DNA from: Pseudomonas taiwanensis
GTDB taxonomy: Bacteria; Pseudomonadota; Gammaproteobacteria; Pseudomonadales; Pseudomonadaceae
NCBI RefSeq assembly: GCF_013393345.1
Contig: NZ_QJRF01000053.1
Coordinates: 60,460 to 124,459 of the forward strand
DNA length: 64,000 nucleotides
Direction: 5' to 3'
This document shows, one piece after another, positions 27,366 to 59,405 of this stretch. Under the pieces are notes generated by a model, which had not been told where the DNA came from, did no database searches, and was given only the letters and a program-made list of their open reading frames with translations. The position numbers were made by a program, and so were the translations under genes. Positions within the stretch are counted from its first letter, which is position 1, and every line of letters begins with the position of its first letter.

Positions 27366-29570
27366 TCAGCGTGCGGAAATGGTGCCGGTGCGCACTCCGC
27401 CGAAGGTGGAGCGCACGGTAACGCTGGGGTTGGCAGCGGGAACGACGGCGGTGGAGTTATTCACCGACAACTTCCACTTCCCATTCGGCCCCGGCGCGGC
27501 GGTGCCCAGCAGGACGACGCCCTGGGCGCTGGTGACTTCAATGCGGATCTGGTTGCCCGCAGGCCGCGAGGTGGTGCCTTCGAAGTCCCAGGAGAAGCGG
27601 TTGTTCGAACCCGCTTTCACGTCCGCCTTGGTGATCGCCAGGGTATCGGCGGCAGTGGCCGGATTCACCGTCACGGTCACCGTTGCCTGAGGCGAGGTGG
27701 CACCAATGGAGTCCCGCGCCTGGTAGTTGAAGGTCACGGTGAAGGCGGTGGTCACCGTTGCCGGTGGGGTGTAGGTCACCGTGGTGCCGTTGGTGCTGGT
27801 CGTGCCGCGTCCTGTGGGCGGCGTGGTCAGGTTCACCACCGTCATCGGGTTGGCTTCCGGGTCCGCGTCGTTGGCCAGCACGTTGATCGTCACCGGTGCG
27901 CCGGCATTGGTGGTCGCAGTGTCGTTGGCGACCACTGGCGGCAGGTTGGGCCGGACGGTGATGGTCACCAGCGCCGGAGTGGACTGAGCACCCAGGTTGT
28001 CGCGGGCCTGATAGGTGAAGGTCACCGTCTGGGTGGTCGCGACCTGGGTCGGCGGCGTGTAGATCACCGCACCCGTGCCGCTGCGCACGAGGGTACCCAG
28101 GGTGACGCTGCCCAGGCTGGCGATGGACAGCGGCACGTTGCCGTCAACGTCGCTGTCGTTGGCGGTCAGGGCGAGGGTCACCGGTACGCCGGCGGTAGTG
28201 CTGGCGCTGTCCGGGTTGGCCACTGGCGGCTGGTTGGCAGGGACATTGGCCGGCCGTCCTTCGATGACCACGAACTCCGTGTCGCTGCCGCCGGCAGCCG
28301 ATTTCACCGTGACCTTCGCCGGCGGCTGCTCGATGCCGGCGGCCACCAGGCGTTGGGTCGCACCGCTGACCGGCAGCAGGCGGCCGAAGCCTTCGGCCAC
28401 CATGGACGGGATTTCCACCTCGTCACTGGAGCGCGCTTCCACCGTCAGCGTCTTGTTCGGCCAGGAATAGCGGGCCTGGCTGATCTTGACGATATCGGTC
28501 AGCTGCTGGGTCTGCGTGGTGGCCGACGCATTGGTGTCCGTGGCGGTGATCAGTACGAAGGGTGGCAGGCTGGCCGGTGCCAGGTCCTGGCCGAAGAACA
28601 GGCCGCTGCCATCACCGGTCATCTCGAACTGGCAGGGCGACGGCGGATCGCCCACCAGGTCGAGGCTTTCGCGGAAGCACAGGGTTGCGCTGGCGCTGGA
28701 GTTGGCGAACACCGATATCCAGGTGCGTTGGGCGTCGCGGCTGTAGGTGGCACGGTCGACGCCGACCTTGCTGGCGATGCCACCGGTGAACAGCTTGCCG
28801 GACAAGTTGAACAGGTTGGTCTCGATGAAGAGGCCGTTGGGACCGTCGATGCGCACGAAGTTGGTCCCGAAGGGGCTGCCAACTACCGGCTCGGCCAGGT
28901 TGGGGTCGCCGATGAAGGTCTCCACTTCATTGGTTTCCGGGTTGGTTTCGGTGTAGAGCGGGCCGTCCCGATGAAGGAACGGGCCGACGTTGCCGGCCAG
29001 GGCGCCGCTGAAGTCGCCGGGGGCGCCGATGCCGATGTCTCGGGTCATGTTGATGGCGCGACGGCCGGGCGCGGTGACGGTGAAGGTATCCACGCCGTAG
29101 GGGTGAGTGACCGTGTAGGTGCCGGCCACCGGAACCGTCACGCGGATGCGGATGCGCGCGAAGCTCTGCTGATCGCCCAATCGCGGGACTTCGGCAGCGA
29201 AGGCCGCTTCGATGCCGGCCACGTAGGCATCCAGCTCCAGGCCATTGCCGGGGTCGTCGATGCTGGCCTCGGCGAGCATCCAGAAGCTTTCATCCGGGAA
29301 GTTGCCGGGGAAGGCGACGGGCTTGGTGTCGTCGAAGATGCCGGGGGTCGGCAGCAGGGTGCACATGAAGTTGCCGGGCGCTCGCGAGCTGCGGGCCTTG
29401 GACAGGCAAAGCTCCAGGGGGGTGCCCTCGGTGTCCTGGTACCAGCGTGGGAAGTAGCCGCTGGCGGCGGTGAAGGGACCGGGGTCCACCGTCGCCAGTT
29501 GCGCCTCGGCAACCGGAATGCCGACGAGCACACCCAGCAACAGGGTGAGTATTCCTGGCCATCTGAACAT
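27366..29570 (-). CDS. Secreted protein with paralogous N-terminal domain and two Ig-like repeats
   Basis: 734 residues. A signal peptide (MFRWPGILTLLLGVLVGIPV, cleaved after AEA) is followed by a domain of about 430 residues that is closely related to the downstream protein 29613-30908. Two cadherin/Big-type Ig-like repeats come next (each begins PPVAN- or PPVVANDTAT- and contains NDSDVDGN or NDADPEANP, Ca-site-like), then a C-terminal beta-rich domain. It is probably an exported surface or extracellular protein. It forms an operon with its paralogue, behind a sigma54-like promoter. Function unknown; location suggests a part in the oxidase/secretion island. Confidence 0.75.
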   Translation of the reverse strand: MFRWPGILTLLLGVLVGIPVAEAQLATVDPGPFTAASGYFPRWYQDTEGTPLELCLSKARSSRAPGNFMCTLLPTPGIFDDTKPVAFPGNFPDESFWMLAEASIDDPGNGLELDAYVAGIEAAFAAEVPRLGDQQSFARIRIRVTVPVAGTYTVTHPYGVDTFTVTAPGRRAINMTRDIGIGAPGDFSGALAGNVGPFLHRDGPLYTETNPETNEVETFIGDPNLAEPVVGSPFGTNFVRIDGPNGLFIETNLFNLSGKLFTGGIASKVGVDRATYSRDAQRTWISVFANSSASATLCFRESLDLVGDPPSPCQFEMTGDGSGLFFGQDLAPASLPPFVLITATDTNASATTQTQQLTDIVKISQARYSWPNKTLTVEARSSDEVEIPSMVAEGFGRLLPVSGATQRLVAAGIEQPPAKVTVKSAAGGSDTEFVVIEGRPANVPANQPPVANPDSASTTAGVPVTLALTANDSDVDGNVPLSIASLGSVTLGTLVRSGTGAVIYTPPTQVATTQTVTFTYQARDNLGAQSTPALVTITVRPNLPPVVANDTATTNAGAPVTINVLANDADPEANPMTVVNLTTPPTGRGTTSTNGTTVTYTPPATVTTAFTVTFNYQARDSIGATSPQATVTVTVNPATAADTLAITKADVKAGSNNRFSWDFEGTTSRPAGNQIRIEVTSAQGVVLLGTAAPGPNGKWKLSVNNSTAVVPAANPSVTVRSTFGGVRTGTISAR

Positions 29571-29612
29571 GACTGCCTCCGTTCACCCGCCTGCGGCAGG
29601 TGAGTGTTGTTC

Positions 29613-30908
29613 TCAGGGGAGAATCAGGACTTCTTCGGTATCGGAGCCGCCATTGGCCGAGCTCACGTGGACGGTCGCCGGTGGAATGAGGCCGGCCGGG
29701 AGATCCAGGTGTCCGGCTACGAGCGGGCCCAGTCCCTCGGCGGTCAGCGCCGGCTGGCCGGTCTGGTCGCTGGAGCTGGCATCCACCGTCAGGCGGCCGG
29801 TGGCCAGGCTGTACTCGGCTCGGCTGATGGTCACCAGGTCCACCAGCGGGGCGGTCTTGGTGGTGGCGGTGCTGCTGGGGATGGCTGCGCTGTTGTCAGC
29901 GGTGAAGGACAGGTTGCCATTGGCCGTCGGGGTGGCCGCGGACTGGCCGTACCAGGCACCCGTGGCGCTGCCCTGCATGGCGCCGCTGGCGCCGGCGGTG
30001 TCGGTGTAGCGCACGGTGGCCGGGGCGGGCGGGGCCAGGGTGAAGAAGTCCTGCTGGCTGGCGCCCCCGGTGCCGCCGGTGGAATAGGTGGCGCGCTCGA
30101 CGATCAGCGGCGTCGGCAACGGCTCCTGGGACAACTTGCCGGAAATGGCGAACTGTCGTGTTTCCGCGCGCAGGCCGTTGGGGCCTTCGATCCGCACGAA
30201 GTTGGTCCCGAAGGGGCTGCCGGTGACTTCCTCCAGCACGTTCGGGTCGCCAATGAAGGACTCCGGCAGGCTGGTGACCGGATTGACCTCCACATAAGGC
30301 CCGTTCACCGAGCGCAGGAAGGGCCCGACATCACCCTTCAAGGCGCCGCTGAATTCGCCGGGCGTGGTGATGCCGATGTCGCGGGTCAGGTTGATGGCGC
30401 GCGTCCCGGGGGTATCCACATCGAACACTTCCACGCCATAGGGGTGGGTGATGGTGTAGGTGCCGGCCACCGGCACCGTCACCCGGATGCGGACGCGCGC
30501 GAAGCTGATCTGCTCGCCTACCGCCGGCAACTCGCCGCTGAAGGCCGCCTCCAGGGCGGACACGTACAGCAAGTCGATACCGGTGGCGGCGTCGGTGATG
30601 GAGGCATCGCCGGTGAACCAGAACGCCTCGTCGGGGAAGTTGGTGGGGAAGACGATCGGCTGGGTGTCGTCGAACACGCCCGGATTGGGCAGCAGGTTGC
30701 ACATGAAGGAGCCGGGTACGCGGGTGCTCTGTGCCTTGGAGAGACAGAGGTCAAGGGCGCGGCCGTGGGTGTCCTGGTACCAGGCCGCAAAGAATCCGTT
30801 GGCCTCGGTATAGGTGGTCTGGTCAACCGCATAGAGACCGGCCTTGGCCGGGGCGACCGTGAGTCCGAGCAATAGCGGGAGCACGAGTTTCGGCAGTGCG
30901 TTGTGCAT
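29613..30908 (-). CDS. Secreted hypothetical protein, paralogue of the Ig-like protein
   Basis: 431 residues. Signal peptide ends APAKAG. The body shares long runs with the neighbour: FARIRIRVTVPVAGTYT versus FARVRIRVTVPVAGTYT, HPYGV, RAIN(L/M)TRDIGI, GSPFGTNFVRI(D/E)GPNGL. Conserved cysteines (LCLSKA, FMCNLLPNPG) suggest a disulfide. It lacks the Ig repeats and ends with the GGSDTEEVLILP equivalent of the neighbour's GGSDTEFVVIEG. First gene of the pair; a TGGCAT-N5-TTGC promoter lies about 85 bases upstream. Confidence 0.75.
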   Translation of the reverse strand: MHNALPKLVLPLLLGLTVAPAKAGLYAVDQTTYTEANGFFAAWYQDTHGRALDLCLSKAQSTRVPGSFMCNLLPNPGVFDDTQPIVFPTNFPDEAFWFTGDASITDAATGIDLLYVSALEAAFSGELPAVGEQISFARVRIRVTVPVAGTYTITHPYGVEVFDVDTPGTRAINLTRDIGITTPGEFSGALKGDVGPFLRSVNGPYVEVNPVTSLPESFIGDPNVLEEVTGSPFGTNFVRIEGPNGLRAETRQFAISGKLSQEPLPTPLIVERATYSTGGTGGASQQDFFTLAPPAPATVRYTDTAGASGAMQGSATGAWYGQSAATPTANGNLSFTADNSAAIPSSTATTKTAPLVDLVTISRAEYSLATGRLTVDASSSDQTGQPALTAEGLGPLVAGHLDLPAGLIPPATVHVSSANGGSDTEEVLILP

Positions 30909-30988
30909 GGTGTTGCCCTTCCAGTCGATGAACTTCGCCGTTTGTCAGGCTCCGATGGGCAAGGGGCCCGTCGTTGACCGGAAGAGGG

Positions 30989-31004
30989 CGCAAACCCCAT
31001 GCCA
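30989..31004 (-). promoter_or_regulatory. Sigma54-like promoter for the secreted-protein pair
   Basis: On the minus strand: TGGCAT, five bases (GGGGT), TTGCG. Both invariant pairs (GG at -24, GC at -12) and the spacing are kept. Confidence 0.65.
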
Positions 31005-31072
31005 GAGCGGTTCCGGGGCTCTGGTTCGGGGTTGGCGGCTGAAACATCTTGAAATAAGTCGTGAGGAGGGGT

Positions 31073-31086: not shown

Positions 31087-31139
31087 GCTGGTAACCCAGA
31101 AGTGGGTGAAAAGTGGGTGGGGAAATGGGGGATTTTCGA

Positions 31140-31171: not shown

Positions 31172-31296
31172 CCGCGAATCTCGGGGCCTGCGCTATAACT
31201 ACCCGGAGTCGGCGCAGGAGTTGCCGACCCGGCCGGAGGCCCCTTTTTACGCCCGCCTTGCGAGCGATCCGACGGTCAAACAAGGGGAGGTTTCGA

Positions 31297-32709
31297 ATGA
31301 AGATGGCGCTGGTGAGCAAGCCCTTCAATCTGTTCCGTTGGTTTTCCCTGGTGAGCCTGGTGATCATCCTCGTGGTGGCCATTCTGCTCGGCTCGGCGGC
31401 AACCCGATTCCTGATGCGCGAGAGCATCGACCGCGATGCCATGCTCAGCGCCCAGTTCATCAAGTCCATCGCCGATGTCGAAGTCATCCACGGCAACTTC
31501 TCCCCCGGCCTGACCCTCGGCGAGTTCCTCGACAAACGTGTCGATGGCGCGCGCCTCGGCGTTTCCCACGAGCAACTGGTCAAATCCCACGAAGAATTCT
31601 TCGACCACATCGTGCGCCTGCCCGATGTGCTGCTGGCCAATGTCTATGCGCCCGATGGCGTGGTGATCTGGTCGACCAATCCGAAGCTGGTGGGTGGCCA
31701 CTCGCTGGAGCGCGCCAAGCTGAGCGAAGCGGTCAGCAGCCGCAACACGGTGACCACCGAGCATCACGGCCCCGATGCCTGCCCGGCGGAAGCCTTTTTC
31801 ATGCGCGTGCCGCACAGCCTCTATCTGGAAAGCTTCATCCCGCTGCTGGACAGCCGGGGCGAAGTGCTCTCGATCATCGAGATCTACAAGGAACCGGTGG
31901 ACCTGATCGCCCGCATGAACCGCGGACTCGTGCTGCTCTGGATCGCTACGGCAGTGGGCGGCGCAGTCATCTACCTCAGCCTGTTCTGGTTCGTGCGCCA
32001 CGCCTCGCGCCTGGTGGACGACCAGCAGCGGCAACTGGTGGAGAACGAAACCCTGGCCCTGCTCGGCGAGATGTCCACCGCCGTCGCCCACAGCCTGCGC
32101 AACCCGCTGGCGTCCATCCGCTCCAGCGCCGAGCTGGCGCTTGAAGTGGACCCGGGACCGCTGCACAAGAACCTGGGCGACATCATCACCCAGGTCGACC
32201 GCATGTCGAAGTGGGTGCGCGAGCTGCTGCTGTCAGCGCGCCCGCTGGCCGGCGACCAGGAACCGGTGGACCTCACCAACGCCCTGGAAGAAACCCTCAC
32301 CGCCTACGAACCGCAGATCCGCCATGCCGGCATCGAAGTCGACTGGCAGACCCGCGACGCACCCAAGGTGGTCAGCCATCCGGTACTTCTGCAACAACTG
32401 CTGGGTAGTGTCCTTTCCAACGCCATCGAGGCCATGCCGCGCGGCGGTCGACTGGCCATCCGCCTGGAGCCGGATGCGCAGCGCCGGTTGCTGACCCTGA
32501 CCGTCAGCGACACCGGCAGCGGCATGTCGCCGGCAATGCTGGAGATGGCCTTCAAACCTTTCCATACCACCAAGCGTGGCGGTCTGGGCGTCGGCCTGGT
32601 GCTGGTGCGCAAGATCGTCGAGCGCTTCGGTGGCGCAGTCAGCATCGATAGCCGGGAAAATTCCGGTACCAACGTGCACCTGACCTTCAGGGCCACGGCA
32701 GGGGGATAA
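31297..32709 (+). CDS. Membrane sensor histidine kinase (MnxS-like)
   Basis: 470 residues. Helix 1 is at about 13-35 and helix 2 at about 208-232, with a periplasmic sensor of about 170 residues between them. The dimerisation/phosphoacceptor box AVAHSLRNPLASIRSS puts the His at 265. The ATPase domain has N box LGSVLSNAIEAMPRGG, DTGSGM and GLGVGLVLVRKIVERFGG. ATG 31297 follows GGGGAGG. The response-regulator gene starts six bases after its stop, so they are a pair. From memory, P. putida GB-1 Mn(II) oxidation needs kinases MnxS1/MnxS2 and regulator MnxR; this gene is the matching kinase by context. The signal is unknown. Confidence 0.85.
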   Translation: MKMALVSKPFNLFRWFSLVSLVIILVVAILLGSAATRFLMRESIDRDAMLSAQFIKSIADVEVIHGNFSPGLTLGEFLDKRVDGARLGVSHEQLVKSHEEFFDHIVRLPDVLLANVYAPDGVVIWSTNPKLVGGHSLERAKLSEAVSSRNTVTTEHHGPDACPAEAFFMRVPHSLYLESFIPLLDSRGEVLSIIEIYKEPVDLIARMNRGLVLLWIATAVGGAVIYLSLFWFVRHASRLVDDQQRQLVENETLALLGEMSTAVAHSLRNPLASIRSSAELALEVDPGPLHKNLGDIITQVDRMSKWVRELLLSARPLAGDQEPVDLTNALEETLTAYEPQIRHAGIEVDWQTRDAPKVVSHPVLLQQLLGSVLSNAIEAMPRGGRLAIRLEPDAQRRLLTLTVSDTGSGMSPAMLEMAFKPFHTTKRGGLGVGLVLVRKIVERFGGAVSIDSRENSGTNVHLTFRATAGG

Positions 32710-32715
32710 CAACAA

Positions 32716-34146
32716 ATGGGCAACAGCATTCTGATTGTCGAAGACGACGAAATCCTGGCCGACAACTTCTGCACCTACCTGCAACGGCGCCAGTTCGACG
32801 TCATGGTCTGCAGCTCGGCCGAAGAAGCGCTGCCGATCATCGAGGCGCAGCACCCGGACCTGGTCCTTACCGACTACTGCCTGCCCGGCATGAGCGGTTG
32901 CGACCTGATCAGCCGGGCCCGCGCGATGGACGAGCAGCTCAAGGTCATCATGATTACCGGGCACGGCAACGTGCAGGGCGCGGTGGAAGCCATGAAGGCC
33001 GGCGCCAGCGACTACCTGACCAAACCGGTGGCGCTCGCCGAGTTGAAGCTGGTGGTGGACAAGGTGCTGGAGGCGCGGCGACAGGAGCAGCGCCTGTCCT
33101 TTTACCAGCAACGTGAAGCCCAGGACTCCGGGCTTGCCGGGCTGATAGGCGACTCCGAACCCATGCGCACCATGAAGGACATGGTCCGCCAGGTGCTCGG
33201 CGCCGAGGAACGCATGGCCGGGGAAGACCTGCCGGTGGTGCTGATCGAAGGCGAGACCGGGACCGGCAAGGAACTGGTGGCTCGCGCGCTGCATTTCGAT
33301 GGTGCGCGCAGCAAGGGTCCCTTCGTCGAGTTCAACTGCGCCTCGATTCCGTCGCACCTCCTGGAAGCCGAACTGTTCGGTCACGAGAAGGGTGCCTTCA
33401 CCGACGCCAAGGATCGCCGCGTGGGCCTGGTGGAAGCGGCCGATGGCGGCACCCTGTTCCTCGACGAGGTGGGCGAGATCGACCTGCTACTCCAGGCCAA
33501 GCTGCTCAAGCTGCTGGAAGACCGCACGATTCGTCGCCTGGGCTCGGTTCGCGAGCGCAAGGTCAACCTGCGCATCATCAGCGCCACGAACTGCAACCTC
33601 GAGCAGATGGTCCAGGAGGGCAAGTTCCGCCGCGACCTCTTCTTCCGCTTGCGCATCATCACCATCAAGGTGCCGCCGCTGCGGGCCCGTGGTGACGATG
33701 TCCTGACCCTGGCCGAACACTTCGTCGCCCAGCATGGCAAGCGCTACGGCAAGCCGGGGCTGCGTTTCAGCGCTGAAGCCCGGGCCGTGCTCAAGGGCTA
33801 CAGCTGGCCGGGGAACGTGCGCGAGCTACGCAACATGCTCGAGCAGACTGTGCTGCTGGCGCCGGGCAACGTCATCGGTCCGGACCAGCTCACCATCTGC
33901 CGCGGCCTGCTGGCCGGGGTTGGCGTCACCGAATCGGCTCCTCCACAGATGCTCGGCGGCCCGCTGGGGCTGGAAGACGAGAACATGAGCCTGTCCGATG
34001 CCGAGCGTGATCTGGTGGTGAAGGTGCTGGGCAAGACCGACTGGAACATCTCCAAATCCGCCCGCATGCTCGGCCTCACCCGCGACATGCTGCGCTACCG
34101 GATCGACAAGCTTGGCCTGGAACGGCCCGACCGGCAGCAACATTGA
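32716..34146 (+). CDS. mnxR: NtrC-family sigma54 response regulator (MnxR-like)
   Basis: 476 residues: receiver (phospho-acceptor D53 in [14 protein letters not shown] in LTKPV), AAA+ domain (Walker A GETGTGKE at 179-186; Walker [12 protein letters not shown]), and a Fis-type HTH ([20 protein letters not shown]). The sigma54-contact loop reads GAFTDA at 226-231 instead of GAFTGA. It should activate the sigma54-type promoters scattered through the island. The symbol is by context with P. putida GB-1 MnxR and is not proven. Confidence 0.85.
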
Positions 34147-34337: not shown

Positions 34338-34871
34338 GTGACGAAGAAAGTACTGATAGTCGACGATGAAGAAATCCTTGCCGCGAATTTCCAGACCTAC
34401 CTGGAAATGCTCGGTTGCGACGTGCGCACCGCCGCCAACGGTGCCATCGCCCTGGAGGTCGTGGTGAACTTCAAGCCCGACCTGCTGGTGCTCGACTATC
34501 GCTTGCCCGACATGACCGGTTTCGAGATTTTCGATGCCATGCGCACCCTGCACAGCTGCGAAGCGGTGCTGATGACCGCGCATCCCAGCATCGAAGTGTG
34601 CAACCGCGCCATCGAGCGCAAGATCGACATCATCCTCCTCAAGCCATTCCCCCTGCATGAACTGGGCAACGTTGTGCTCCACGGCCTGCCGACTGCCGCC
34701 CAGCGCGATCAGGAATCGCCGGCCGAGCCACCCGTCCAGGTGGACCGTCGTCGCGGAGGCGAGGTGAACTTCCCGCTGAAGCTGTATGACGGCGCCTGGG
34801 TGCTCTCCGACCGCCGCCGTCCCGCCGCAAGCTCCGAAGAGCCTCTGAAGCAGATCAAGAAAGGCACCTGA
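34338..34871 (+). CDS. Single-domain response regulator (receiver only)
   Basis: 177 residues. The receiver (TKKVLIVDDEEILAANFQTY, acceptor D53 in LLVLDYRLPDMTGFEIF, Lys in ILLKPFP) closely parallels that of the upstream enhancer-binding protein. The tail of about 60 residues is charged and low in structure, with no HTH or enzyme domain. GTG 34338 was chosen: it follows GGGGAG and lies downstream of the promoter at 34262, which would fall inside the longer reading. It may act as a phosphate sink or a protein-protein switch in the same signal path. Confidence 0.8.
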   Translation: MTKKVLIVDDEEILAANFQTYLEMLGCDVRTAANGAIALEVVVNFKPDLLVLDYRLPDMTGFEIFDAMRTLHSCEAVLMTAHPSIEVCNRAIERKIDIILLKPFPLHELGNVVLHGLPTAAQRDQESPAEPPVQVDRRRGGEVNFPLKLYDGAWVLSDRRRPAASSEEPLKQIKKGT

Positions 34872-35370: not shown

Positions 35371-35376
35371 AAAAGA

Positions 35377-36632: not shown

Positions 36633-36637
36633 GGCGG

Positions 36638-37153: not shown

Positions 37154-37169
37154 CGGCACGTGCTTTGCT
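37154..37169 (+). promoter_or_regulatory. Sigma54-like promoter of the transglycosylase gene
   Basis: CGGCAC, GTGCT, TTGCT: one mismatch to TGGCAC-N5-TTGC(A/T), about 55 bases before the ATG. Confidence 0.65.
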
Positions 37170-44576: not shown

Positions 44577-44592
44577 TGGCACAGGCATTGCT
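44577..44592 (+). promoter_or_regulatory. Consensus sigma54 promoter of the propeller-sco operon
   Basis: TGGCAC, AGGCA, TTGCT, identical to the oxidase promoter, 42 bases before the ATG. Confidence 0.85.
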
Positions 44593-47907: not shown

Positions 47908-47918
47908 GGGCCGTTGCC

Positions 47919-50478: not shown

Positions 50479-50494
50479 TGGCACGATGCATGCG
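50479..50494 (+). promoter_or_regulatory. Sigma54-like promoter of the secretion operon
   Basis: TGGCAC, GATGC, ATGCG: perfect -24, weaker -12 with GC kept. Confidence 0.6.
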
Positions 50495-50556
50495 TATGTC
50501 CAGGCAAGGGCGGATTCCGGCAGCACCGGACCGCCATGGCCCCTGGAGGTACCACC

Positions 50557-52245: not shown

Positions 52246-53017
52246 GGCCTATACCGCCGTGCTCGGGCCCCACAGCGTGGGCCTGTTGCGCTGCCGCGAC
52301 CGCGAGTGGCTCGGCAGCACCGACTTCGATGCCGTCGGCGGCCTGGCCTGGCCGTCCGCAGTGGCCGCGCTGGAAACCCTGCTGGCCGGACGCAAGCAGG
52401 GGCGGGCCATGCTCAAGGTGCTGCTTTCCAGCCACTACACACGTTTCTGCCTGGTGCCCTGGAGCGAGGCCATCAACACCCCCGAGGAGTTGGCCGGTTA
52501 CGCGCGCCTCTGCTTCGAAGACATCTACGGCAATCTGGGCGAGGGCTGGAGCCTGTGCCTGGCGCCGGAAGCCGCCGGCCAACCGCGGCTGGCCGCCGCC
52601 ATGCCGGACGAGCTGCTCACCCAGCTGCGCAGCCTGGCCAAGGCTAATGGCCTGCAACTCGCCTCGGTGCAGCCCTACCTGGTCGCCGCCTTCAACCGCT
52701 ACCGCGCGGCGTTGTCGATGGACGACTTCCTCTTCCTCGTGGCCGAGCCCGGGCGCGGCAGCCTGCTGCTGGCACGCGGCGGTCGCTGGGCCACCGTGCG
52801 CTCGGTTGCGCTGGACACAAGCGACACCGCACTGAATGACCTGATCGCCCGCGAAGGCGAACTCCGTGGCCTGGAGCAAGACGCTCCGGCCGGCTTCTTC
52901 CTGCATGCCCCGGGACGCGCCGGCCAGTTCGCCGCAGAAGTCGCCCGCCTCGACGCCGAGCTGCCCGAAGGGCGGTATCAGGACCCCTTGCACGCCATGG
53001 CAATGACGGTGAACTGA
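52226..53017 (+). CDS. PilM/GspL-cytoplasmic-domain-like assembly protein
   Basis: 263 residues, no membrane helix. By size, position (between ATPase and PilN-like protein) and remote features it takes the place of PilM or the cytosolic half of GspL, actin-like proteins that link the ATPase to the inner-membrane ring. Motif evidence is thin. GTG start overlaps the ATPase gene by 20 bases, which indicates translational coupling. Confidence 0.6.
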   Translation: MSPLWPEAYTAVLGPHSVGLLRCRDREWLGSTDFDAVGGLAWPSAVAALETLLAGRKQGRAMLKVLLSSHYTRFCLVPWSEAINTPEELAGYARLCFEDIYGNLGEGWSLCLAPEAAGQPRLAAAMPDELLTQLRSLAKANGLQLASVQPYLVAAFNRYRAALSMDDFLFLVAEPGRGSLLLARGGRWATVRSVALDTSDTALNDLIAREGELRGLEQDAPAGFFLHAPGRAGQFAAEVARLDAELPEGRYQDPLHAMAMTVN

Positions 53018-53018: not shown

Positions 53019-53564
53019 ATGCGCCCGATCGATCTCGACTTCCAGCACAAGCCCGTTTCCAGCATCCCCGGCTGGTTGCTCCTGGGTGGCGGGATGCTGA
53101 TGGCCGTGCTCATGCTCGGTGCGCACCATGGCATCGGCAACGAGACCGAAACCCGCAATGCCGAATTGCAGCGCGTGGACCAGCAATTGCAGAAACGCGG
53201 CCTGCGCCAGGCACCGCTCTCGGCCGGCGAAGAGAAGGCCCGCGCCGCCAGCGTGGCGGAACTGCGCCGCATCACCGCGCAGATGAACCTGCCCTGGGAC
53301 GGCCTGTTCGCCATGCTCGAAGCCCAGTCGCGCAAGGACGTCGCCCTGCTGTCGCTGACCCCCGATGCCCGCAAGGGCCAGCTGCGCATTTCCGCCGAGG
53401 CGCGCGACCTGCCGGCCATGCTGGCCTTCCACCGGGATCTGGAAGCCAGCGACGCGCTGAGCGATGTCTCGCTGCTCAATCACGAAATGGTCACCGAGCA
53501 GGCCGAACGGCCCATCCGCTTCAACCTGCTGGCGAACTGGGGGGTGAAGGATGCACGTCCCTAG
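53019..53564 (+). CDS. PilN-like inner-membrane assembly protein
   Basis: 181 residues: a short N-terminal cytosolic segment (RPIDLDFQHKPVSSIPG) that in PilN binds PilM, one membrane helix (WLLLGGGMLMAVLMLGAH), a coiled coil (ETETRNAELQRVDQQLQKRG) and a ferredoxin-like periplasmic domain. Overlaps the next gene by 14 bases. Confidence 0.78.
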   Translation: MRPIDLDFQHKPVSSIPGWLLLGGGMLMAVLMLGAHHGIGNETETRNAELQRVDQQLQKRGLRQAPLSAGEEKARAASVAELRRITAQMNLPWDGLFAMLEAQSRKDVALLSLTPDARKGQLRISAEARDLPAMLAFHRDLEASDALSDVSLLNHEMVTEQAERPIRFNLLANWGVKDARP

Positions 53565-54102
53565 GCTGATCCTCATCGAACAGACCCGCCGCCTCGGCTG
53601 GCCGGGTCTGGTCGGCGCCACGCTGCTGGTCCTGGCCCTGGGCTACGCCCTGTTCGGCCTGCTGCCGGCGCGCGAAGCGCTGACGAACCTGGATCAGCAA
53701 CTGGCCGCCGACCGCGCGCAACTGGCGGCGGCCCCCAGCGCCGTCGCCGCCAAACCGGCCAGCGACGCCTCATCGGCCCAGCTGGAAGACTTCCGCCGCA
53801 ACCTGCCGGCACAACTGGACGCCACTGGCGCCATCGACCGCATCTACGTCCTGGCCCAGCAGGAGGGCATCTCCCTGGCCCGTGGCGAATATGCCCTCGG
53901 GCTCGATCCCAAGACCCGCCTGGCGCGCTACCAGGTGCTGCTGCCCGTGCGCGGCAGCTACCCGCAACTGCGCCGCTTCCTCCATGGCCTGCAGGCGCAA
54001 CTGCCGGCCCTGGCCCTGGAAGAGGTGGACCTGCAACGCAAGCAGATCGCCGACTCGGAACTCGAGGGGCGTATCCGCATGACCCTGTATCTGGCGAGGT
54101 GA
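53551..54102 (+). CDS. PilO/GspM-like inner-membrane assembly protein
   Basis: 183 residues: membrane helix (GLVGATLLVLALGYALFGLL), coiled coil (LTNLDQQLAADRAQLAA), and a periplasmic ferredoxin-like domain (ATGAIDRIYVLAQQEGISLA, QVLLPVRGSYPQLRRFLHGL). Pairs with the PilN-like protein in T4P and T2SS inner-membrane platforms. Confidence 0.8.
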   Translation: MHVPRLILIEQTRRLGWPGLVGATLLVLALGYALFGLLPAREALTNLDQQLAADRAQLAAAPSAVAAKPASDASSAQLEDFRRNLPAQLDATGAIDRIYVLAQQEGISLARGEYALGLDPKTRLARYQVLLPVRGSYPQLRRFLHGLQAQLPALALEEVDLQRKQIADSELEGRIRMTLYLAR

Positions 54103-54104
54103 CC

Positions 54105-54602
54105 ATGGCACGCCGCATGTTCTGGTTGGCATTCCTCGGCTCGGCCGCCGTCCTGGCGGTGGTTCCTGAGTTCTTCGGCGAGCAGGCCGAACCCATGGCC
54201 ATGCCGCGCCCGCAGCGCCTGGCGGCCCTACCCGAGACCGCCGCGCCGGCCTCCGCCCCGGCCGCGCCGGTGGTGGCGGAAATCGCGGTACCGGCGTCCG
54301 ACCTGTTCGCTGTGCAGAGCTGGTACGTGGCGCCGCCGCCGCCCCCGGCGATGGCCTCCGCACCGCCGCCTCCGCCACCGAAGCCGTCGGCGCCGCCGCT
54401 GCCGTTCAAGTTCATCGGCAAGATGGATGACCGCCAGCAGCTGCAGGTTTTCCTGATGCGCGGCGAGCAGGTGCTGGTGGTGCGCGAAGGCGACCTGATC
54501 GACAAGACCTACAAGGTCCAGCGCATCGATACCGAGCGCATGACCCTGGTCTATCTGCCCCTGGATATCGCCCAGACCCTGGTCGTCGGGAGTTCGCTAT
54601 GA
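54105..54602 (+). CDS. PilP/GspC-like periplasmic linker protein
   Basis: 165 residues: N-terminal membrane helix, a Pro/Ala-rich linker with polyproline runs, and a small C-terminal beta domain (PFKFIGKMDDRQQLQVFLMR, EGDLIDKTYKVQRIDTERMT) like the HR domain of GspC/PilP that contacts the secretin. ATG 54105 (GAGG upstream) preferred over GTG 54099. Overlaps the secretin gene. Confidence 0.8.
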   Translation: MARRMFWLAFLGSAAVLAVVPEFFGEQAEPMAMPRPQRLAALPETAAPASAPAAPVVAEIAVPASDLFAVQSWYVAPPPPPAMASAPPPPPPKPSAPPLPFKFIGKMDDRQQLQVFLMRGEQVLVVREGDLIDKTYKVQRIDTERMTLVYLPLDIAQTLVVGSSL

Positions 54603-56419
54603 ACCGCCTGACCTGCTGCCTCGCCCTGGTGCTGCTTGCCGGTTGCGCCACCAACCTGGCCCAGCGCGAAGGGCTGGACCTGATCGACGCCGGCCAGTTC
54701 GAAGAAGGCCTGGCCAAGCTGGAGCAGACCGCTCGCGAGTCACCCAACGACGTCGGCGCGCAGATGGCCGTGACCACCCAGCGCGCCAGGGCGGTGAAGG
54801 CATTGCTCAGCGATGGCGACCTCGCCCGCACGCAGCGCGATTTCGCCACTGCACGGCTGAACTACGTGCGGGTGCTGCGCATCGAGCAACATAACCAACG
54901 GGCGCTGGACGGCCTGCATGTGATCGAACAGCAGCGCAACATTCAGGACATGCTGCGCCAGGGCCAGACTGACCTGCGCCGGGGCGATGTGGTGGGAGCC
55001 TCGCGCCAGGCACGCGGCATCCTTGCGCTGGACCCGGAACATGAAGGCGCTCGCGAGCTGCAGCGCAGCATCGAAGTGGTCCAGGCCCGCTCCGCCGTGC
55101 CCTATCCGCAACTGCGCTCGCGCCTGGATCGCCCCGTCACCCTGGAATTCCGCGACGCCAACCTGAAGGTGATCTTCGAAGTGCTGGCGCAGACCTCGGG
55201 GCTGAACTTCATCTTCGACAAGGATGTGCGCCCGGACCTCAAGGCCACCATCTTCGTCCGCGAGGTGCCCATCGAGGATGCGGTGGAGCTGCTGCTGCAA
55301 CAGAACCAGCTGCACCAGCGTGTGGTGAACGACAACACCATCGTCGTCTACCCCGACTCGCCGCAGAAGCTGAAGGATTACCAGGACCTGGTGATGCGCA
55401 CCTTCTACCTGACCAACACCGACGCGGCGACGGCGATGAACCTGGTGAAGACGTTGCTGAAGACCCGCGACGTGTTCATCGACGAGCGCCTCAACACCCT
55501 GACCATGCGCGACACGCCCGACGCCGTACGCATGGCCGAGAAATTGTTCCAGGCCCAGGACCAGTCCAACCCCGAGGTGGTGCTGGAAGTGGAAGTGATG
55601 GAGGTCTCGCGCAAGCGCATCCTCGACCTCGGCCTGCAATGGCCCAACACCTTCGGTGTGATCAATGACGACGGCTCGCCGGTGACCATCCTCGATCAGC
55701 TCAAGGGCATCGACTCGGGCCGTATCAGCATCTCGCCGTCGCCCCAGCTGAAGATCAACGCCCAGGACAACGACGTGAACACCCTGGCCAGCCCGGTGAT
55801 CCGCGTGAGCAACAAAGAGCAGGCCCGTGTCCACATCGGCCAGCGGGTGCCCATCGTCAGCGCCACCTCGGTGCCCTCCACCCAGGGGCCGGTGATCACC
55901 GAGAGCATCACCTACCTGGACGTCGGCCTGAAGCTGGAAGTGCAGCCCACCGTGCACCTGAACAACGAGGTGGCGATCAAGGTCGCGCTGGAAGTGAGCA
56001 ACGCCACGCCGCTGACCCCGACCCAGAACGGCACGATTCCGGTTCAGGTAGACACCCGCAACGCCCAGACCACCCTGCGCCTGCGTGATGGCGAAACCCA
56101 GGTGCTGGCGGGCCTGGTGCGCAACGACCAGTCCAACAGCGGCAACAAGATTCCCGGCCTCGGCGACCTTCCCGGTATCGGTCGGCTGTTCGGCAGCAAC
56201 AACGACCAGCTCGCCAAGTCCGAGCTGGTCCTCTCCATCACCCCGCGCATCGTGCGCAACCTGCCGTATCAGAGCCCCTACGACATGGAATTCCCGTCGG
56301 GCACCGAGAGCAGCATGCGCGTACCGACGGTGCGCGGCCCGGTGGAAGCCCTGGGCGTCGACCTGCCCGATGCACCGGCGGTGGTGGTCAGCCCCGCCCC
56401 CATCAGTGGGAGGCCCTGA
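54599..56419 (+). CDS. Outer-membrane secretin (GspD/PilQ family), lipoprotein
   Basis: 606 residues. Lipobox LLAGC (Cys 16), a TPR-like N-terminal region (about 20-165), an STN domain (RPVTLEFRDANLKVIFEVLA, QTSGLNFIFDKDV), a secretin N domain (TFYLTNTDAATAMNLVKTLL), and the secretin core (RVHIGQRVPIVSATSVPSTQ, LDVGLKLEVQPTVHLNNEVA, GNKIPGLGDLPGIGRLFGSN, KSELVLSITPRIVR). It forms the outer-membrane gate. The lipid anchor means no separate pilotin is needed. The TPR front resembles Tad/BfpB-like or MshL-like secretins more than XcpQ. Confidence 0.92.
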   Translation: MNRLTCCLALVLLAGCATNLAQREGLDLIDAGQFEEGLAKLEQTARESPNDVGAQMAVTTQRARAVKALLSDGDLARTQRDFATARLNYVRVLRIEQHNQRALDGLHVIEQQRNIQDMLRQGQTDLRRGDVVGASRQARGILALDPEHEGARELQRSIEVVQARSAVPYPQLRSRLDRPVTLEFRDANLKVIFEVLAQTSGLNFIFDKDVRPDLKATIFVREVPIEDAVELLLQQNQLHQRVVNDNTIVVYPDSPQKLKDYQDLVMRTFYLTNTDAATAMNLVKTLLKTRDVFIDERLNTLTMRDTPDAVRMAEKLFQAQDQSNPEVVLEVEVMEVSRKRILDLGLQWPNTFGVINDDGSPVTILDQLKGIDSGRISISPSPQLKINAQDNDVNTLASPVIRVSNKEQARVHIGQRVPIVSATSVPSTQGPVITESITYLDVGLKLEVQPTVHLNNEVAIKVALEVSNATPLTPTQNGTIPVQVDTRNAQTTLRLRDGETQVLAGLVRNDQSNSGNKIPGLGDLPGIGRLFGSNNDQLAKSELVLSITPRIVRNLPYQSPYDMEFPSGTESSMRVPTVRGPVEALGVDLPDAPAVVVSPAPISGRP

Positions 56420-56422
56420 GCC

Positions 56423-56893
56423 ATGCAACGCCAGGCCGCCTTCTCGCTGATCGAACTGGTGATCGCCATGGCCATCCTCGGCCTGCTCGCCAGCATGGCC
56501 GCACCGCTGGCGGAAACCGTGATCCAGCGCGGCAAGGAGCAGGAGCTCAAGGCCGCGCTCTACGAGATCCGCGACGCCATCGATGCCTACAAGCTGGCGG
56601 CCGATGCCGGGCATATCGAGAAATCCGCCGCCAGCTCCGGCTACCCGGCGTCATTGCAGGTGCTGGTGGACGGCGTGCGTGACCTGCGCAGCATCAAGGG
56701 CGAGCGCATCTATTTCCTGCGCCGCATCCCCCGCGATCCCTTCGCCGACGCGCGCCTGGAGCCCGAGGAAAGCTGGGCCCTGCGCGCCTACACCAGCCCG
56801 GCGGACGACCCGCGCCCCGGCGTGGACGTGTTCGACGTCTATTCCATGACCGCCGGCCGTGGCCTCAACGGCACGCCTTACCGGGAGTGGTGA
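56423..56893 (+). CDS. xcmT2: Pseudopilin with Ala at the -1 cleavage position
   Basis: 156 residues. N-terminus MQRQAAFSLIELVIAMAILG: Phe +1 and Glu +5 are normal, but -1 is Ala instead of Gly, which prepilin peptidases accept less often. The rest is GspG-like (SGYPASLQVLVDGVRDLR, YFLRRIPRDPF, VDVFDVYSMTAGRGLNGTPY). The T2/T3 naming follows the GB-1 cluster and the order is uncertain. Confidence 0.85.
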   Translation: MQRQAAFSLIELVIAMAILGLLASMAAPLAETVIQRGKEQELKAALYEIRDAIDAYKLAADAGHIEKSAASSGYPASLQVLVDGVRDLRSIKGERIYFLRRIPRDPFADARLEPEESWALRAYTSPADDPRPGVDVFDVYSMTAGRGLNGTPYREW

Positions 56894-56895
56894 AG

Positions 56896-57270
56896 ATGGC
56901 ACGGCAGAAGGGCTTCACCCTCATCGAACTGCTGGTGGTCATGGCCATCATCGCCACGCTGATGACCATCGCCGTGCCGCGCTATTTCTCCAGCCTGGAG
57001 AGTTCCAAGGAGACCACGCTGCGGCAGAGCCTTTCGGTCATGCGCGAGGCCCTGGACCAGTTCTACGGCGACACCGGGCGCTATCCTGATTCGATAGAGG
57101 AACTGGTTGCCCAGCGCTACCTGCGCGCCCTGCCACAGGACCCGATGACCGAGCGCAGCGATCTGTGGGTGCTACTGCCACCCCCGGAAGGCGCGCCGGG
57201 CAGCGTCTACGACGTCAAGAGCAGCGCCCCTGGCCGGGCGCGGGACGGGAGCCTCTATGCGGACTGGTGA
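56896..57270 (+). CDS. xcmT3: GspG-type pseudopilin
   Basis: 124 residues. Standard class III signal K-G|FTLIELLVVMAIIATLM, then GspG-like body (DQFYGDTGRYPDSIEELVAQ, YLRALPQDPMTERSDLW, VYDVKSSAPGRARDGS). ATG 56896 preferred to GTG 56887 because GGAG lies at the right distance. Overlaps xcmX by 14 bases. Confidence 0.88.
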   Translation: MARQKGFTLIELLVVMAIIATLMTIAVPRYFSSLESSKETTLRQSLSVMREALDQFYGDTGRYPDSIEELVAQRYLRALPQDPMTERSDLWVLLPPPEGAPGSVYDVKSSAPGRARDGSLYADW

Positions 57271-57745
57271 GCAGGGTTTCACCTACCTCGGCGTGCTCTT
57301 CCTCGTGATGCTGATGGGGATGGCACTGGCCGGCGCGGGACAGCTCTGGTCCACCAGCAGCCAGCGCGCCCGCGAGCGCGACCTGCTCTGGGTCGGCAGC
57401 CAGTATGCCCAGGCCCTGCGCAGCTACTACCGGGCCTCGCCGGGCGTGGCGCAGTACCCGGCGAGCCTGGAAGAACTGCTTGAAGACAATCGCTTCCCGG
57501 AGCCAGTCCGCCACCTGCGGCAGCTCTACCCCGACCCCATCACCGGCAGCGCCGATTGGGGCCTGATCCGCTCCTTCGACGGTCGAATCGCCGGCATCTT
57601 CAGCCAGTCCCGCCAGCGCCCGCTGAAGCAGGCGCACTTCCCCGCGCAATGGGTGGAGTTCGAGGGGACGGGCAGCTTCGCCGATTGGCGCTTCGTCGCC
57701 GAGAAGGCCTTCATGGAAAACACGCCAGCGGGGGCCACGCCATGA
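57257..57745 (+). CDS. xcmX: Atypical pseudopilin lacking Glu+5
   Basis: 162 residues. Leader MRTGEQG|FTYLGVLFLVML: +5 is Gly, not Glu, as in minor tip pseudopilins such as GspK. The body has FPEPVRHLRQLYPDPITGSA typical of these XcmX-type proteins. From memory, xcmX of P. putida GB-1, also between XcpT-like genes and csg homologues, is needed for export of the Mn-oxidizing factor. Overlaps csmE. Confidence 0.85.
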   Translation: MRTGEQGFTYLGVLFLVMLMGMALAGAGQLWSTSSQRARERDLLWVGSQYAQALRSYYRASPGVAQYPASLEELLEDNRFPEPVRHLRQLYPDPITGSADWGLIRSFDGRIAGIFSQSRQRPLKQAHFPAQWVEFEGTGSFADWRFVAEKAFMENTPAGATP

Positions 57746-58134
57746 ACCGCGCACCGCTGCTGGCCGTCCTCGTCCTGTGCTGCGCCCTGGGCACGGCACG
57801 CGCCGATGAAGACGAGATCATGGGCTTCATCGTCGACTACACCATTTCCCACATCGGCCACGACTTCTACCGCTCCTTCAGCGAGCGCCTGCGCGACACC
57901 AGCAAGCTGGACTTCAACCTGGTGGTGCGCGAACGCCCCGATGCCCGCTGGGGCAGCCTGATCTGGGTGGAGTACGAGCAACGCGTGCTCTACCGCCAGT
58001 TTCTCCCGCCCAACACCGCGGAACTGCAACCCACTGCCTACGCAGCGGCGGACCTGGTGCTGGAGGCCATTGCCCAAACGAAGCTGCAACGCCTCCTGCA
58101 AGACACACACGACATGGAGAGGGACGAACTATGA
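57742..58134 (+). CDS. csmE: CsgE-like curli secretion accessory protein
   Basis: 130 residues with signal peptide (PLLAVLVLCCALGTARA). The mature part matches CsgE (GFIVDYTISHIGHDFYRSFS, LDFNLVVRERPDARWGSLIW, YEQRVLYRQFL). E. coli CsgE caps the CsgG pore on the periplasmic side and selects substrate. ATGA overlaps on both sides show tight coupling. Confidence 0.92.
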   Translation: MNRAPLLAVLVLCCALGTARADEDEIMGFIVDYTISHIGHDFYRSFSERLRDTSKLDFNLVVRERPDARWGSLIWVEYEQRVLYRQFLPPNTAELQPTAYAAADLVLEAIAQTKLQRLLQDTHDMERDEL

Positions 58135-58532
58135 ACAAGAATAGACTTGCCCTGTGGCTGCTCGGGTTCGGCCTGGTCGGAACAGTCCAGGCCACTGAAC
58201 TGGTGTACACCCCGGTCAACCCCGCATTCGGCGGCAACCCGCTCAATGGCACCTGGCTGCTGAACAACGCCCAGGCGCAGAACGATCACGACGATCCGGA
58301 TTCCGGTTCCACGGGGACCCGGCAGAGTGCCCTGGAGCGCTTCACCAGCACGCTGGAATCGCGCCTGCTGTCGCAGTTGCTGACCAATATCGAGGAAGGC
58401 AATACCGGCAGCCTCACCACCGAGTCTTTCATCATCAACATGATCGACGACGGGGGGCAGCTCACCATCGAGATCACCGATCGTGCCACCGGCGAAGTTT
58501 CGGAAGTCGTCGTCAACGGCCTGCTCCCTTAA
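58131..58532 (+). CDS. csmF: CsgF-like curli nucleation/pore protein
   Basis: 133 residues with signal peptide (ALWLLGFGLVGTVQA). CsgF signature right after cleavage: TELVYTPVNPAFGGNPLNGT, WLLNNAQAQND. In E. coli the N-terminus of CsgF plugs into the CsgG pore and the rest anchors the curlin nucleator CsgB. The C-terminal half is rich in beta strands (SFIINMIDDGGQLTIEITDR). Confidence 0.92.
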   Translation: MNKNRLALWLLGFGLVGTVQATELVYTPVNPAFGGNPLNGTWLLNNAQAQNDHDDPDSGSTGTRQSALERFTSTLESRLLSQLLTNIEEGNTGSLTTESFIINMIDDGGQLTIEITDRATGEVSEVVVNGLLP

Positions 58533-58559
58533 TCCAGGCATCGACAGGAAGCCACCACC

Positions 58560-59405
58560 ATGAACAGAGTGCTGATGCTGGTCCTGCTGCTCGCTACCCT
58601 GCAAGGCTGCGGTCTGCGCCAGCCGATGTCGGCTGACACCGAAGGCCAGACCCCGACGCTGACCCCGCGTGCCTCGACCTATTACGACCTGCTGAACCTG
58701 CCCCGGCCCAAGGGCCGCCTGGTGGCGGCCGTGTACGGCTTCCGTGACCAGACCGGGCAATACAAGCCGACCCCGGCCAGCTCCTTCTCCACCAGCGTCA
58801 CCCAGGGCGCCGCCAGCATGCTGGTGGACGCGCTGCAGGCCAGCGGCTGGTTCATGGTGCTGGAGCGCGAGGGCCTGCAGAACGTGCTGACCGAGCGCAA
58901 GATCATCCGCGCCTCGCAGAACAAGCCCAACACGCCGGCGAATATCCAGACCCAGTTGCCCCCCCTGCAGGCCGCCAACCTGCTGCTGGAAGGCGGCATC
59001 ATCGCCTACGACACCAACGTGCGCAGCGGCGGTGAAGGCGCCCGTTACCTCGGTATCGGTGCCTCCCACGAGTACCGGGTCGACCAGGTTTCGGTGAACC
59101 TGCGGGCGGTGGACGTGCGCAGCGGCACGGTGCTGGCCAACGTGATGACCACCAAGACCATCTATTCGGTGGGGCAGAACGCCAGCGTCTTCAAGTTCAT
59201 CGAGTTCAAGGAGCTGCTGGAGGCCGAGGCTGGCTACACCACCAACGAACCGGCGCAGCTCTGCGTGCTGTCCGCCATCGAATCCGCCGTCGCCCACCTG
59301 ATCGCCCAGGGCGTGGAACGCCGGTTGTGGTCGGCGGCCGGGAACGAACCGGTGGAGCAGACCTCGCTGAAGAAATACATGGGGGCGCAGGTGTCCATCC
59401 ACTGA
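58560..59405 (+). CDS. csmG: CsgG-like outer-membrane secretion pore lipoprotein
   Basis: 281 residues. Lipobox LQGC (Cys 17). CsgG/HfaB family body: RLVAAVYGFRDQTGQYKPTP, SSFSTSVTQGAASMLVDALQ, WFMVLEREGLQNVLTERKII, GGIIAYDTNVRSGGEGARYL, YRVDQVSVNLRAVDVRSG. Nonamers of CsgG form the ungated curli channel. Last gene of the run that began with the ATPase; no csgA or csgB lies before or after it. Confidence 0.93.
   Translation: MNRVLMLVLLLATLQGCGLRQPMSADTEGQTPTLTPRASTYYDLLNLPRPKGRLVAAVYGFRDQTGQYKPTPASSFSTSVTQGAASMLVDALQASGWFMVLEREGLQNVLTERKIIRASQNKPNTPANIQTQLPPLQAANLLLEGGIIAYDTNVRSGGEGARYLGIGASHEYRVDQVSVNLRAVDVRSGTVLANVMTTKTIYSVGQNASVFKFIEFKELLEAEAGYTTNEPAQLCVLSAIESAVAHLIAQGVERRLWSAAGNEPVEQTSLKKYMGAQVSIH

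Follow-up and report, generated by a model that had tools for sequence, protein, structure and literature searches.

A conserved Pseudomonadaceae gene cluster around the multicopper oxidase MnxG, with a Gsp-like machine and a probable curli-type branch

Introduction

Why bacteria oxidise manganese, and how an oxidase of about 1900 residues gets outside the cell and builds mineral there, are the background to this study of a 64,000-nucleotide stretch of Pseudomonas taiwanensis DNA (GCF_013393345.1, contig NZ_QJRF01000053.1, positions 60,460–124,459; hereafter the window). A first-pass annotation had described window positions 27366–59405 as one 32-kb island joining a giant multicopper oxidase, copper chaperones, a Gsp/Pil-like machine and csgEFG homologues, and had read the set as one manganese-oxidation and export system. 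Our analysis indicates, with a probability of roughly 0.65 for the explanation as a whole, that the 32-kb stretch holds the greater part of a single gene cluster, conserved in Pseudomonadaceae and centred on the oxidase MnxG. Outside the cell, the cluster's products likely deposit manganese minerals on a protein scaffold. It likely has two separable branches, in which a Gsp-like machine (Xcm) would export MnxG and CsmEFG, homologues of curli export proteins, would export an amyloid. We regard the oxidase and its constant company as firm at the level of sequence, and infer from them the export routes, the scaffold and the regulation. G, C and L numbers are our handles for genomes, contigs and loci, and papers given by PMC number are cited from passages of their text.

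Results

MnxG and its neighbours keep one gene order

The oxidase scores 3853 bits against the NCBIfam equivalog NF041487 over residues 46–1934 (cut-off 3100). The copper motifs HxHxHQW and HCHxxxH are present in all 81 MnxG relatives with at least 95% coverage, and their columns are invariant, including in the window protein. The closest named relatives, from Pseudomonas sp. DY-1 and Metapseudomonas resinovorans, are both called MnxG, and by these sequence measures the oxidase is MnxG.

To place the gene in context, we scanned genome contigs with a profile of the MnxG alignment and analysed the loci of the best 80 of 522 relatives. Because 64 of the 71 loci with at least 9.7 kb downstream keep seven genes (propeller, SCO, SCO, cytochrome fusion, SurA, ATPase and PilM) collinear on one strand, the collinearity is beyond chance. 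Just upstream of mnxG, gspF, gspG and the SLT gene are found in 43 of the 67 loci with at least 3.3 kb of upstream sequence, and the other 24 have no gspFG beside mnxG; several species among these 24 presumably belong to the P. putida group. Each SCO protein retains the motif CxxxCP, and the cytochrome fusion the motif CxxCH, in 71 of 71 relatives. Some exceptions to synteny are second mnxG copies in genomes with a full locus (L079 beside L130, L144 beside L140). Tandem mnxG genes also occur, as three copies (G080:C22:376947-394945) or two (G006:C1:5529555-5541491).

The mnxG operon of strain GB-1 has been printed as mnxG, YVTN propeller, SCO, SCO, substrate-binding protein–cytochrome c and SurA (PMC11409713, Table 4), and a similar operon is reported for OF001, with propeller, SCO, SurA and ABC genes named in a figure legend (PMC8218464, Fig. 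2). The propeller, cytochrome fusion and SurA-like protein had been listed as undescribed parts of the system; with this operon in print, we dropped that label for all three, and it stands for the secreted pair in the papers that could be searched.

Every strong MnxG match comes with the Xcm secretin

In a sample of 148 genomes of the family, in which csmG and curlins were looked for in local stretches only, MnxG matched in 23 genomes, 22 of them strongly (in G058 in two pieces), the remaining match being partial and at 43–47% (G114). The Xcm secretin was found in 23 genomes, namely the 22 strong-MnxG genomes and G069. GspF was found in 21 of the 22, in G069 and, as a fragment, in G014, again 23 in total; the contig of G138 ends 239 bases upstream of mnxG. 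IgA, a predicted secreted protein described below, occurs in 24 genomes, all 22 with strong MnxG plus G009 and G012. For 17 of the 22, local stretches contained the csmEFG-curlin block, and the MnxG association holds in 6 of the 19 genera sampled.

The second sample comprised 199 genomes of the genus of G138, 59 of which have MnxG. The secretin matched 71 genomes at threshold and 61 at at least 64% identity (the 59 MnxG-positive genomes, G168 and G305); ten matches at 32–34% are paralogues and were left out of the count. CsmG matched 65 genomes. The 58 matches at 77% or more are all MnxG-positive, and the other seven genomes are MnxG-negative with only a 51–54% CsgG, so CsmG is present in 58 of the 59 MnxG-positive and none of the 140 MnxG-negative genomes. 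IgA occurs in 60 genomes (58 of the 59, plus G168 and G305). Curlin repeats (PF07012) were detected in 63, that is, 56 MnxG-positive genomes plus exactly the seven with the 51–54% CsgG. All 58 CsmG-positive genomes have curlins, 56 by PF07012, G206 by Pfam and G174 by tblastn. The comparison of neighbourhoods suggested by the first-pass annotation is thereby provided, and it bears out the company of MnxG with both the Xcm secretin (59/59) and CsmG (58/59).

mnxG was found in 9 of 18 genomes of the window's genus, its own genome counted. In a further sample of 360 genomes, 4 matched mnxG, one being the window's own. The three non-Pseudomonadaceae mnxG genes adjoin gspE, gspF, gspG and the propeller gene, and no csm, curlin or IgAB gene was found in the stretches fetched there.

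Two branches are likely, because six MnxG-positive genomes without CsmG and curlins where these were looked for keep Xcm. The oxidase exporter is likely to be set apart from the amyloid branch, because the Gsp-like machine accompanies MnxG in every strong case and CsmEFG accompanies curlins. Genomes of the window's genus without mnxG can carry cluster remnants, in the form of regulators, IgAB or gspF/gspG pieces (G014:C126 L152, G012:C40 L148, G009:C1 L150). The remnants in G009, G012, G014, G069, G305 and G168 suggest that loss of mnxG, xcm and csm can be joint or partial.

Xcm is a Gsp/type IV pilus-like hybrid

The major pseudopilin passes the GspG equivalog cut-off of the canonical type II secretion system (Table 1). 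The other equivalogs of that system are missed: GspE scores 480 of the 630 bits needed, GspF 288 of 424 and GspD 158 of 351. The ATPase, GspF and secretin fall below the cut-offs of both the type II secretion system and the type IV pilus, and on these profile scores the machine is a hybrid, Gsp/type IV pilus-like, which we do not file as a canonical type II secretion system. Pfam gives no match for PilM, PilP or the third pseudopilin; these labels denote position, with a sub-threshold NCBIfam match for PilP.

The name Xcm is assigned relative to GB-1 by gene order only. In P. putida GB-1, the xcmT1-xcmS pair and the xcmT2/T3/X-csmEFG cluster are reportedly separate loci needed for export of the Mn(II)-oxidizing factor. 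This separation fits in part with the 24 assessable loci, among the best 80 relatives, that lack gspFG beside mnxG. An Xcm cluster is cited for GB-1 and KT2440 (PMC4509608).

CsmEFG has its own curlin genes

The CsgE, CsgF and CsgG homologues all pass Pfam cut-offs, and CsgE alone passes its NCBIfam cut-off. Two curlin-repeat proteins are encoded nearby, on contig C65 of the same genome, and a 105-residue open reading frame (ORF) beside a curlin gene gives a CsgH match below cut-off (23.9 of 35 bits). That CsmEFG has its own curlin genes is new as far as our searches reach. The sole paper found with both 'mnxG' and 'curli' treats P. putida csgEFG and csgAB in a section apart from manganese oxidation, in the passages seen (PMC3056050). 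Among titles and abstract openings, with most subscription papers lying outside the search, we found no paper tying curli or an IgA/IgB-type pair to mnxG.

The IMG gene numbers printed for strains DSV-1 and MS-1 leave 17 numbers between surA and mnxS1 (PMC11409713). The same interval of fluorescens-type clusters holds 17 genes, small ORFs uncounted (RR2, gspE, PilM, N, O, P, secretin, three pseudopilins, csmE, F, G, two curlins, IgB and IgA), with which the gap in DSV-1 and MS-1 would, by inference only, be consistent. Second csmEFG and curlin copies lie at L179:8380-11807 and L181:9243-13836; the 20 kb fetched there contain neither mnxG nor xcm nor IgAB.

IgA and IgB form an unnamed secreted pair

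IgA and IgB are labels coined here; IgB matches IgA at 53%. No sequence relative of IgA was found in Pfam, NCBIfam or the PDB, where only matches of E 0.6 or worse were returned, and its fold comparison spans residues 261–431 only. In the 199-genome sample, IgA lies within 6 kb of a curlin gene in all 55 genomes with both hits. Where both are seen, the IgA/IgB genes immediately precede the curlin genes and share their strand. In eight genomes IgA lies 34–425 kb from csmG, with the curlins still adjacent to IgA. The pair represents an unnamed family accompanying MnxG, which, within the reach of our searches, is new.

Sigma-54-type sites recur upstream of five units

The NtrC-type regulator matches its counterparts at the mnxS/mnxR position of other clusters at 59–71%, a comparison made among clusters other than that of GB-1 MnxR. 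The single-receiver protein RR2 is placed, in most named loci, between surA and gspE.

We counted sigma-54-type −24/−12 sites with at most two mismatches within 220 bp upstream of genes in related loci, and compared the counts with block-shuffle means. Sites exceed the shuffles at mnxG (52/80 versus 1.2), RR2 (37/86 versus 1.4), gspG (20/63 versus 1.0), the SLT gene (18/54 versus 1.3) and IgA (15/28 versus 0.3); the gspG and SLT upstream regions overlap because the two genes diverge. Internal genes have next to none (gspF 0/53, surA 0/68, pilM 0/70, pilN 1/69). A row of the count labelled RRs54 was set aside, since hits to the RR2 gene are mixed into it. Kinship of the loci can raise these counts, which are not independent trials, because a chance match in conserved coding sequence can recur. 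In the window, the site before mnxG reads TGGCACAGGCATTGCT, and the same 16 bases stand before the propeller gene. We rejected the whole-window count of sigma-54-type matches as evidence (12 versus 15.1 expected); since it is not above chance, single sites are only candidates, and weight lies on upstream position and conservation. A degenerate GG-N10-GC scan was uninformative. An rpoN::Tn5 insertion abolishes manganese oxidation and is complemented (PMC11409713), and sigma-54 sites have been predicted at PmnxG and PmcoA (PMC11930936). Predicted sites above shuffle level before five units, to which sigma-54 polymerase may bind, are new to the literature our searches covered.

The cluster extends beyond the 32-kb stretch

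A Pfam scan of window positions 27366–59405 places all the listed genes in the order first described (Table 1). Starts were reset from the sequence, among them those of csgE, sco2 and the kinase, for which 30844 had been given and which begins at about 31294. The cluster genes are full-length ORFs.

Table 1. Features of the MnxG cluster, in window coordinates unless a locus is given
Feature	Position	Strand	Basis
IgB, predicted secreted protein of 734 aa; paralogue of IgA in its N-terminal half, with Big_9/cadherin-like domains towards the C terminus	27366..29570	-	Pfam
IgA, 431-aa predicted secreted protein, modelled all-beta	29613..30908	-	no Pfam/NCBIfam/PDB sequence relative
sigma-54-type -24/-12 site upstream of IgA	30989..31004	-	motif scan, 2 mismatches
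sensor histidine kinase (MnxS-like, by neighbourhood)	31294..32709	+	HisKA + HATPase_c; start set from sequence
NtrC-type sigma-54 response regulator (MnxR-like, by neighbourhood)	32716..34146	+	Response_reg + Sigma54_activat + HTH_8
single-receiver protein RR2	34338..34871	+	Response_reg; start set from sequence
GspF homologue (XcmS position)	35442..36647	-	T2SSF 2.6e-55; below GspF equivalog cut-off
GspG major pseudopilin (XcmT1 position)	36638..37060	-	T2SSG; TIGR01710 187 bits, cut-off 88.85
sigma-54-type site before transglycosylase	37154..37169	+	motif scan, 1 mismatch
SLT lytic transglycosylase	37226..37846	+	PF01464 1e-28
sigma-54-type site before mnxG	38178..38193	+	motif scan, 1 mismatch
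mnxG, 1937-aa multicopper oxidase, Mn(II)-oxidising MnxG family	38248..44061	+	NF041487 equivalog, copper motifs
sigma-54-type site before propeller gene	44577..44592	+	motif scan
YVTN-type beta-propeller protein, mnxG operon	44635..46545	+	Pfam/NCBIfam scan; operon in print
SCO1/SenC predicted copper chaperone 1	46556..47278	+	PF02630
SCO1/SenC predicted copper chaperone 2	47275..47907	+	PF02630
c-type cytochrome fused to periplasmic binding protein	47904..49478	+	cytochrome c + Peripla_BP_6
SurA_N-domain predicted periplasmic chaperone	49503..50138	+	PF13624
sigma-54-type site before gspE	50479..50494	+	motif scan, 2 mismatches
Xcm-type assembly ATPase (GspE/PilB-like)	50536..52245	+	T2SSE 4e-122; below GspE and PilB equivalog cut-offs
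PilM/GspL-position protein	52226..53017	+	no Pfam match; position conserved
PilN-like protein	53019..53564	+	PF05137
PilO/GspM-like protein	53551..54102	+	PF10741 (T2SSM_b)
PilP/GspC-position protein	54099..54602	+	weak TIGR03021 match 17.7 bits, below cut-off; no Pfam match
Xcm-type secretin	54599..56419	+	PF00263 7e-41
pseudopilin (XcmT2 position)	56423..56893	+	N_methyl
pseudopilin (XcmT3 position)	56887..57270	+	N_methyl; T2SSG below cut-off
pseudopilin-position protein (XcmX position)	57257..57745	+	no Pfam match; conserved position
CsmE, CsgE homologue	57742..58134	+	PF10627; NF007701 162 bits, cut-off 137
CsmF, CsgF homologue	58131..58532	+	PF10614 2e-32; below NCBIfam cut-off
CsmG, CsgG homologue	58560..59405	+	PF03783 3e-80; below NCBIfam cut-off
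two curlin-repeat proteins (156 aa, 460 aa), contig C65	L162:4394-4864 and 2958-4340		PF07012, E 3.6e-20 and 1.9e-21

The stretch does not hold the whole set, since the cluster runs past 59405 onto C65, another contig of the genome (77 contigs, 6.69 Mb). The first 2142 bases of C65 are identical to window positions 61859–64000. Past this overlap, IgA, IgB, the 156- and 460-residue curlin-repeat proteins and then a small ORF lie on a single strand, and genes for a kinase and a sigma-54 regulator run divergently from IgA. The IgB-IgA/kinase/regulator module of the window is thus a second copy of the module that stands here beside the curlins. The word 'island' proved loose: GC content is flat, no tRNA was found and no integrase is present among the genes scanned, and we rejected a mobile genomic island.

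Between csmG and the curlins, this genome has a DUF2931 pair and a gene for a Tle1-like phospholipase of the type VI secretion effector type (window 60811-63946, minus strand, and L162:283-2088); in G011 (L147) csmG is less than 1 kb from the curlin gene. In DSV-1 and MS-1, mcoA and an SCO gene lie between mnxS1 and mnxS2 (PMC11409713). Fluorescens-type clusters carry a multicopper oxidase of about 950 residues (McoA position) and an SCO gene between two kinases (L172:10498-13434, L177:12838-15648); neither module of this genome showed them. Dispersed repeats of 44–95 bp, intergenic and common to relatives, lie at window positions 27245, 35124-35375, 44172 and 60292, and by eye resemble repetitive extragenic palindromes.

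Discussion

The cluster would work as follows. A kinase and an NtrC-type regulator of the MnxS/MnxR type, with RNA polymerase–sigma-54, would switch on the units. The two SCO proteins probably deliver copper to MnxG in the periplasm, and the SurA-like and propeller proteins may aid folding or act as partners. The c-type cytochrome fusion, if the reading is true, is a concrete candidate to explain why cytochrome c maturation is reportedly needed: a Tn5 insertion in a gene placed in that process lowers manganese oxidation (PMC11409713). Judged by their constant company, GspE/F/G, the PilMNOP-like proteins, the secretin and the pseudopilins would move MnxG across the outer membrane. Curli homology and curlin company suggest that CsmG, CsmE and CsmF export curlins, which would form an amyloid matrix around MnxG. 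IgA and IgB may sit on the surface as adhesin-like proteins and link fibre, oxidase or mineral to one another, which is the weakest step. A bolder picture, to which we give rather low odds, is an evolved biomineralisation organ, not just an enzyme with an exporter, in which MnxG leaves via Xcm and is captured on the curli-type fibre, IgA/IgB serve as dock for oxidase or mineral, and MnxR with sigma-54 switches all of it on.

Several observations weigh against this reading. The 13 mapped Tn5 mutants of DSV-1 and MS-1, from a small screen, name no xcm, csm, curlin or IgAB gene in the passages seen (PMC11409713). Sigma-54-type sites before the propeller gene (8/74) and gspE (2/70) are not broadly conserved, an antisense control upstream of the cytochrome gene scored 22/69, and the window-wide count belongs here too. 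The N-terminal half of IgA is poorly modelled. A third IgA/IgB pair, on contig C23 (L163:9476-13049), matches the window pair at 60–69% and lies apart from kinase, curlin and other cluster genes. G280 has MnxG and no CsmG or curlins, only a csgE remnant being left of csmEFG, and in the local stretches of G033, G048, G058, G064 and G102 csmEFG and curlins were not found beside secretin or IgAB; because these five genomes and G280 show no csmG or curlins where looked for, the curli branch is not essential everywhere. In G195, which has MnxG, IgAB is broken and the curlin frames are shortened, and IgAB is kept without MnxG in G305, G168, G009 and G012. The secretin persists in three genomes that have no MnxG (G069, G305 and G168), so Xcm may also carry other substrates. 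The diverged MnxG-like protein of G114 (G114:C1:1364369-1366492) occurs without an Xcm secretin. The Fisher values for co-occurrence (1e-37 to 7e-50) are descriptive only and ignore ancestry. In macrocolonies of P. resinovorans MOB-513, expression of the mnxG and mcoA homologues is unaffected by Mn(II), two mop genes are induced and heme peroxidases are implicated (PMC9765421).

Among the alternatives, the one that survives best, and still a doubtful one, concerns IgA/IgB, which would not be matrix parts at all; they could be a signal partner of the adjacent kinase, as a sensor/ligand pair, or an adhesin carried by Xcm and unconnected with curli. IgA and IgB are divergent from the kinase in many loci, the five family-sample genomes named above keep IgAB without a curlin nearby, and G305 keeps IgAB and Xcm genes with no mnxG or csm. 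Yet the curlins follow IgB on the same strand where both are seen, with the 55 of 55 proximity described above, and five genomes (L166-L170) keep IgAB and curlins with no such kinase in the 20 kb fetched.

Two further alternatives are improbable to a similar degree. The modules could be neutral neighbours that common descent has kept side by side and that large deletions remove, so that co-occurrence reflects history and not joint function; losses do often take blocks (L148, L150, L152, L172), and the Fisher values assume independence. This is countered by the spread of the association over 6 of 19 genera, by its persistence where modules lie apart, as in the eight genomes with IgA distant from csmG and still beside curlins, and by the recurrence of sigma-54-type sites upstream of several units. 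Alternatively, the MnxG of this genus might not be the working Mn(II) oxidase, heme peroxidases acting instead and the cluster serving another metal or being silent, as the MOB-513 expression data would allow. The NF041487 score, the full-length ORFs and the doubled regulator module argue otherwise, and MnxG is called the main oxidase of GB-1 (PMC11930936).

Least probable is the earlier proposal that Xcm and CsmEFG, as a secretin and a CsgG-type pore, together export MnxG itself, with curlins incidental: xcm and csm are contiguous, csmE overlaps the pseudopilin gene by four bases and CsmG is in 58 of 59 MnxG-positive genomes, but G280, the five family-sample genomes (local stretches only) and the three distant loci combine MnxG and Xcm without CsmG, and CsmG accompanies curlins even in the second copies at L179 and L181. 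Of the first-pass picture of one oxidation and export system, the single cluster thus holds up (secretin in 22 of 22 and 59 of 59 genomes, gspF-gspG-SLT in 43 of 67 loci), and the single export system is weakened by MnxG-positive genomes without CsmG and by the way CsmG tracks curlins.

We favour the two-branch cluster. The oxidase operon and an exporter were known; the amyloid branch and the unnamed protein pair tied to them are new as far as the literature searched extends. If the amyloid and IgA/IgB genes do belong, mineral formation would have a genetically encoded scaffold, deletable piece by piece. IgA/IgB and CsmG would be simple genomic markers for complete MnxG systems.

Comparison with known systems

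The curli, or type VIII, system (csgBAC-csgEFG) shares with the cluster the CsgE, CsgF and CsgG homologues, two curlin-repeat proteins and a sub-threshold CsgH match. In contrast to curli, these genes are tied here to an oxidase and a Gsp-like machine, the IgA/IgB pair with a sigma-54-type site precedes the curlins, and no CsgD was seen in the cluster. Unlike the Ig-like adhesins Bap, SiiE and the ice-binding adhesin, IgA and IgB are small and paired, with an apparent Sec signal and an N-terminal half that has no confident model. The Xcm pathway of GB-1 is said to have the same GspF/GspG pair and pseudopilin-csmEFG tail in the same order; here, however, ATPase, PilMNOP-like and secretin genes lie between both parts and mnxG, and gspFG adjoin mnxG. 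With the mnxG systems of GB-1, DSV-1, MS-1 and OF001, the cluster has in common the six mnxG-operon genes in the same order and an NtrC-type regulator with a kinase, sigma-54 dependence being reported in MS-1. It differs from them in that no mcoA-like gene is seen between kinase and regulator, the regulator module occurs in two copies, and the oxidase is linked to export, curli and IgAB genes as well.

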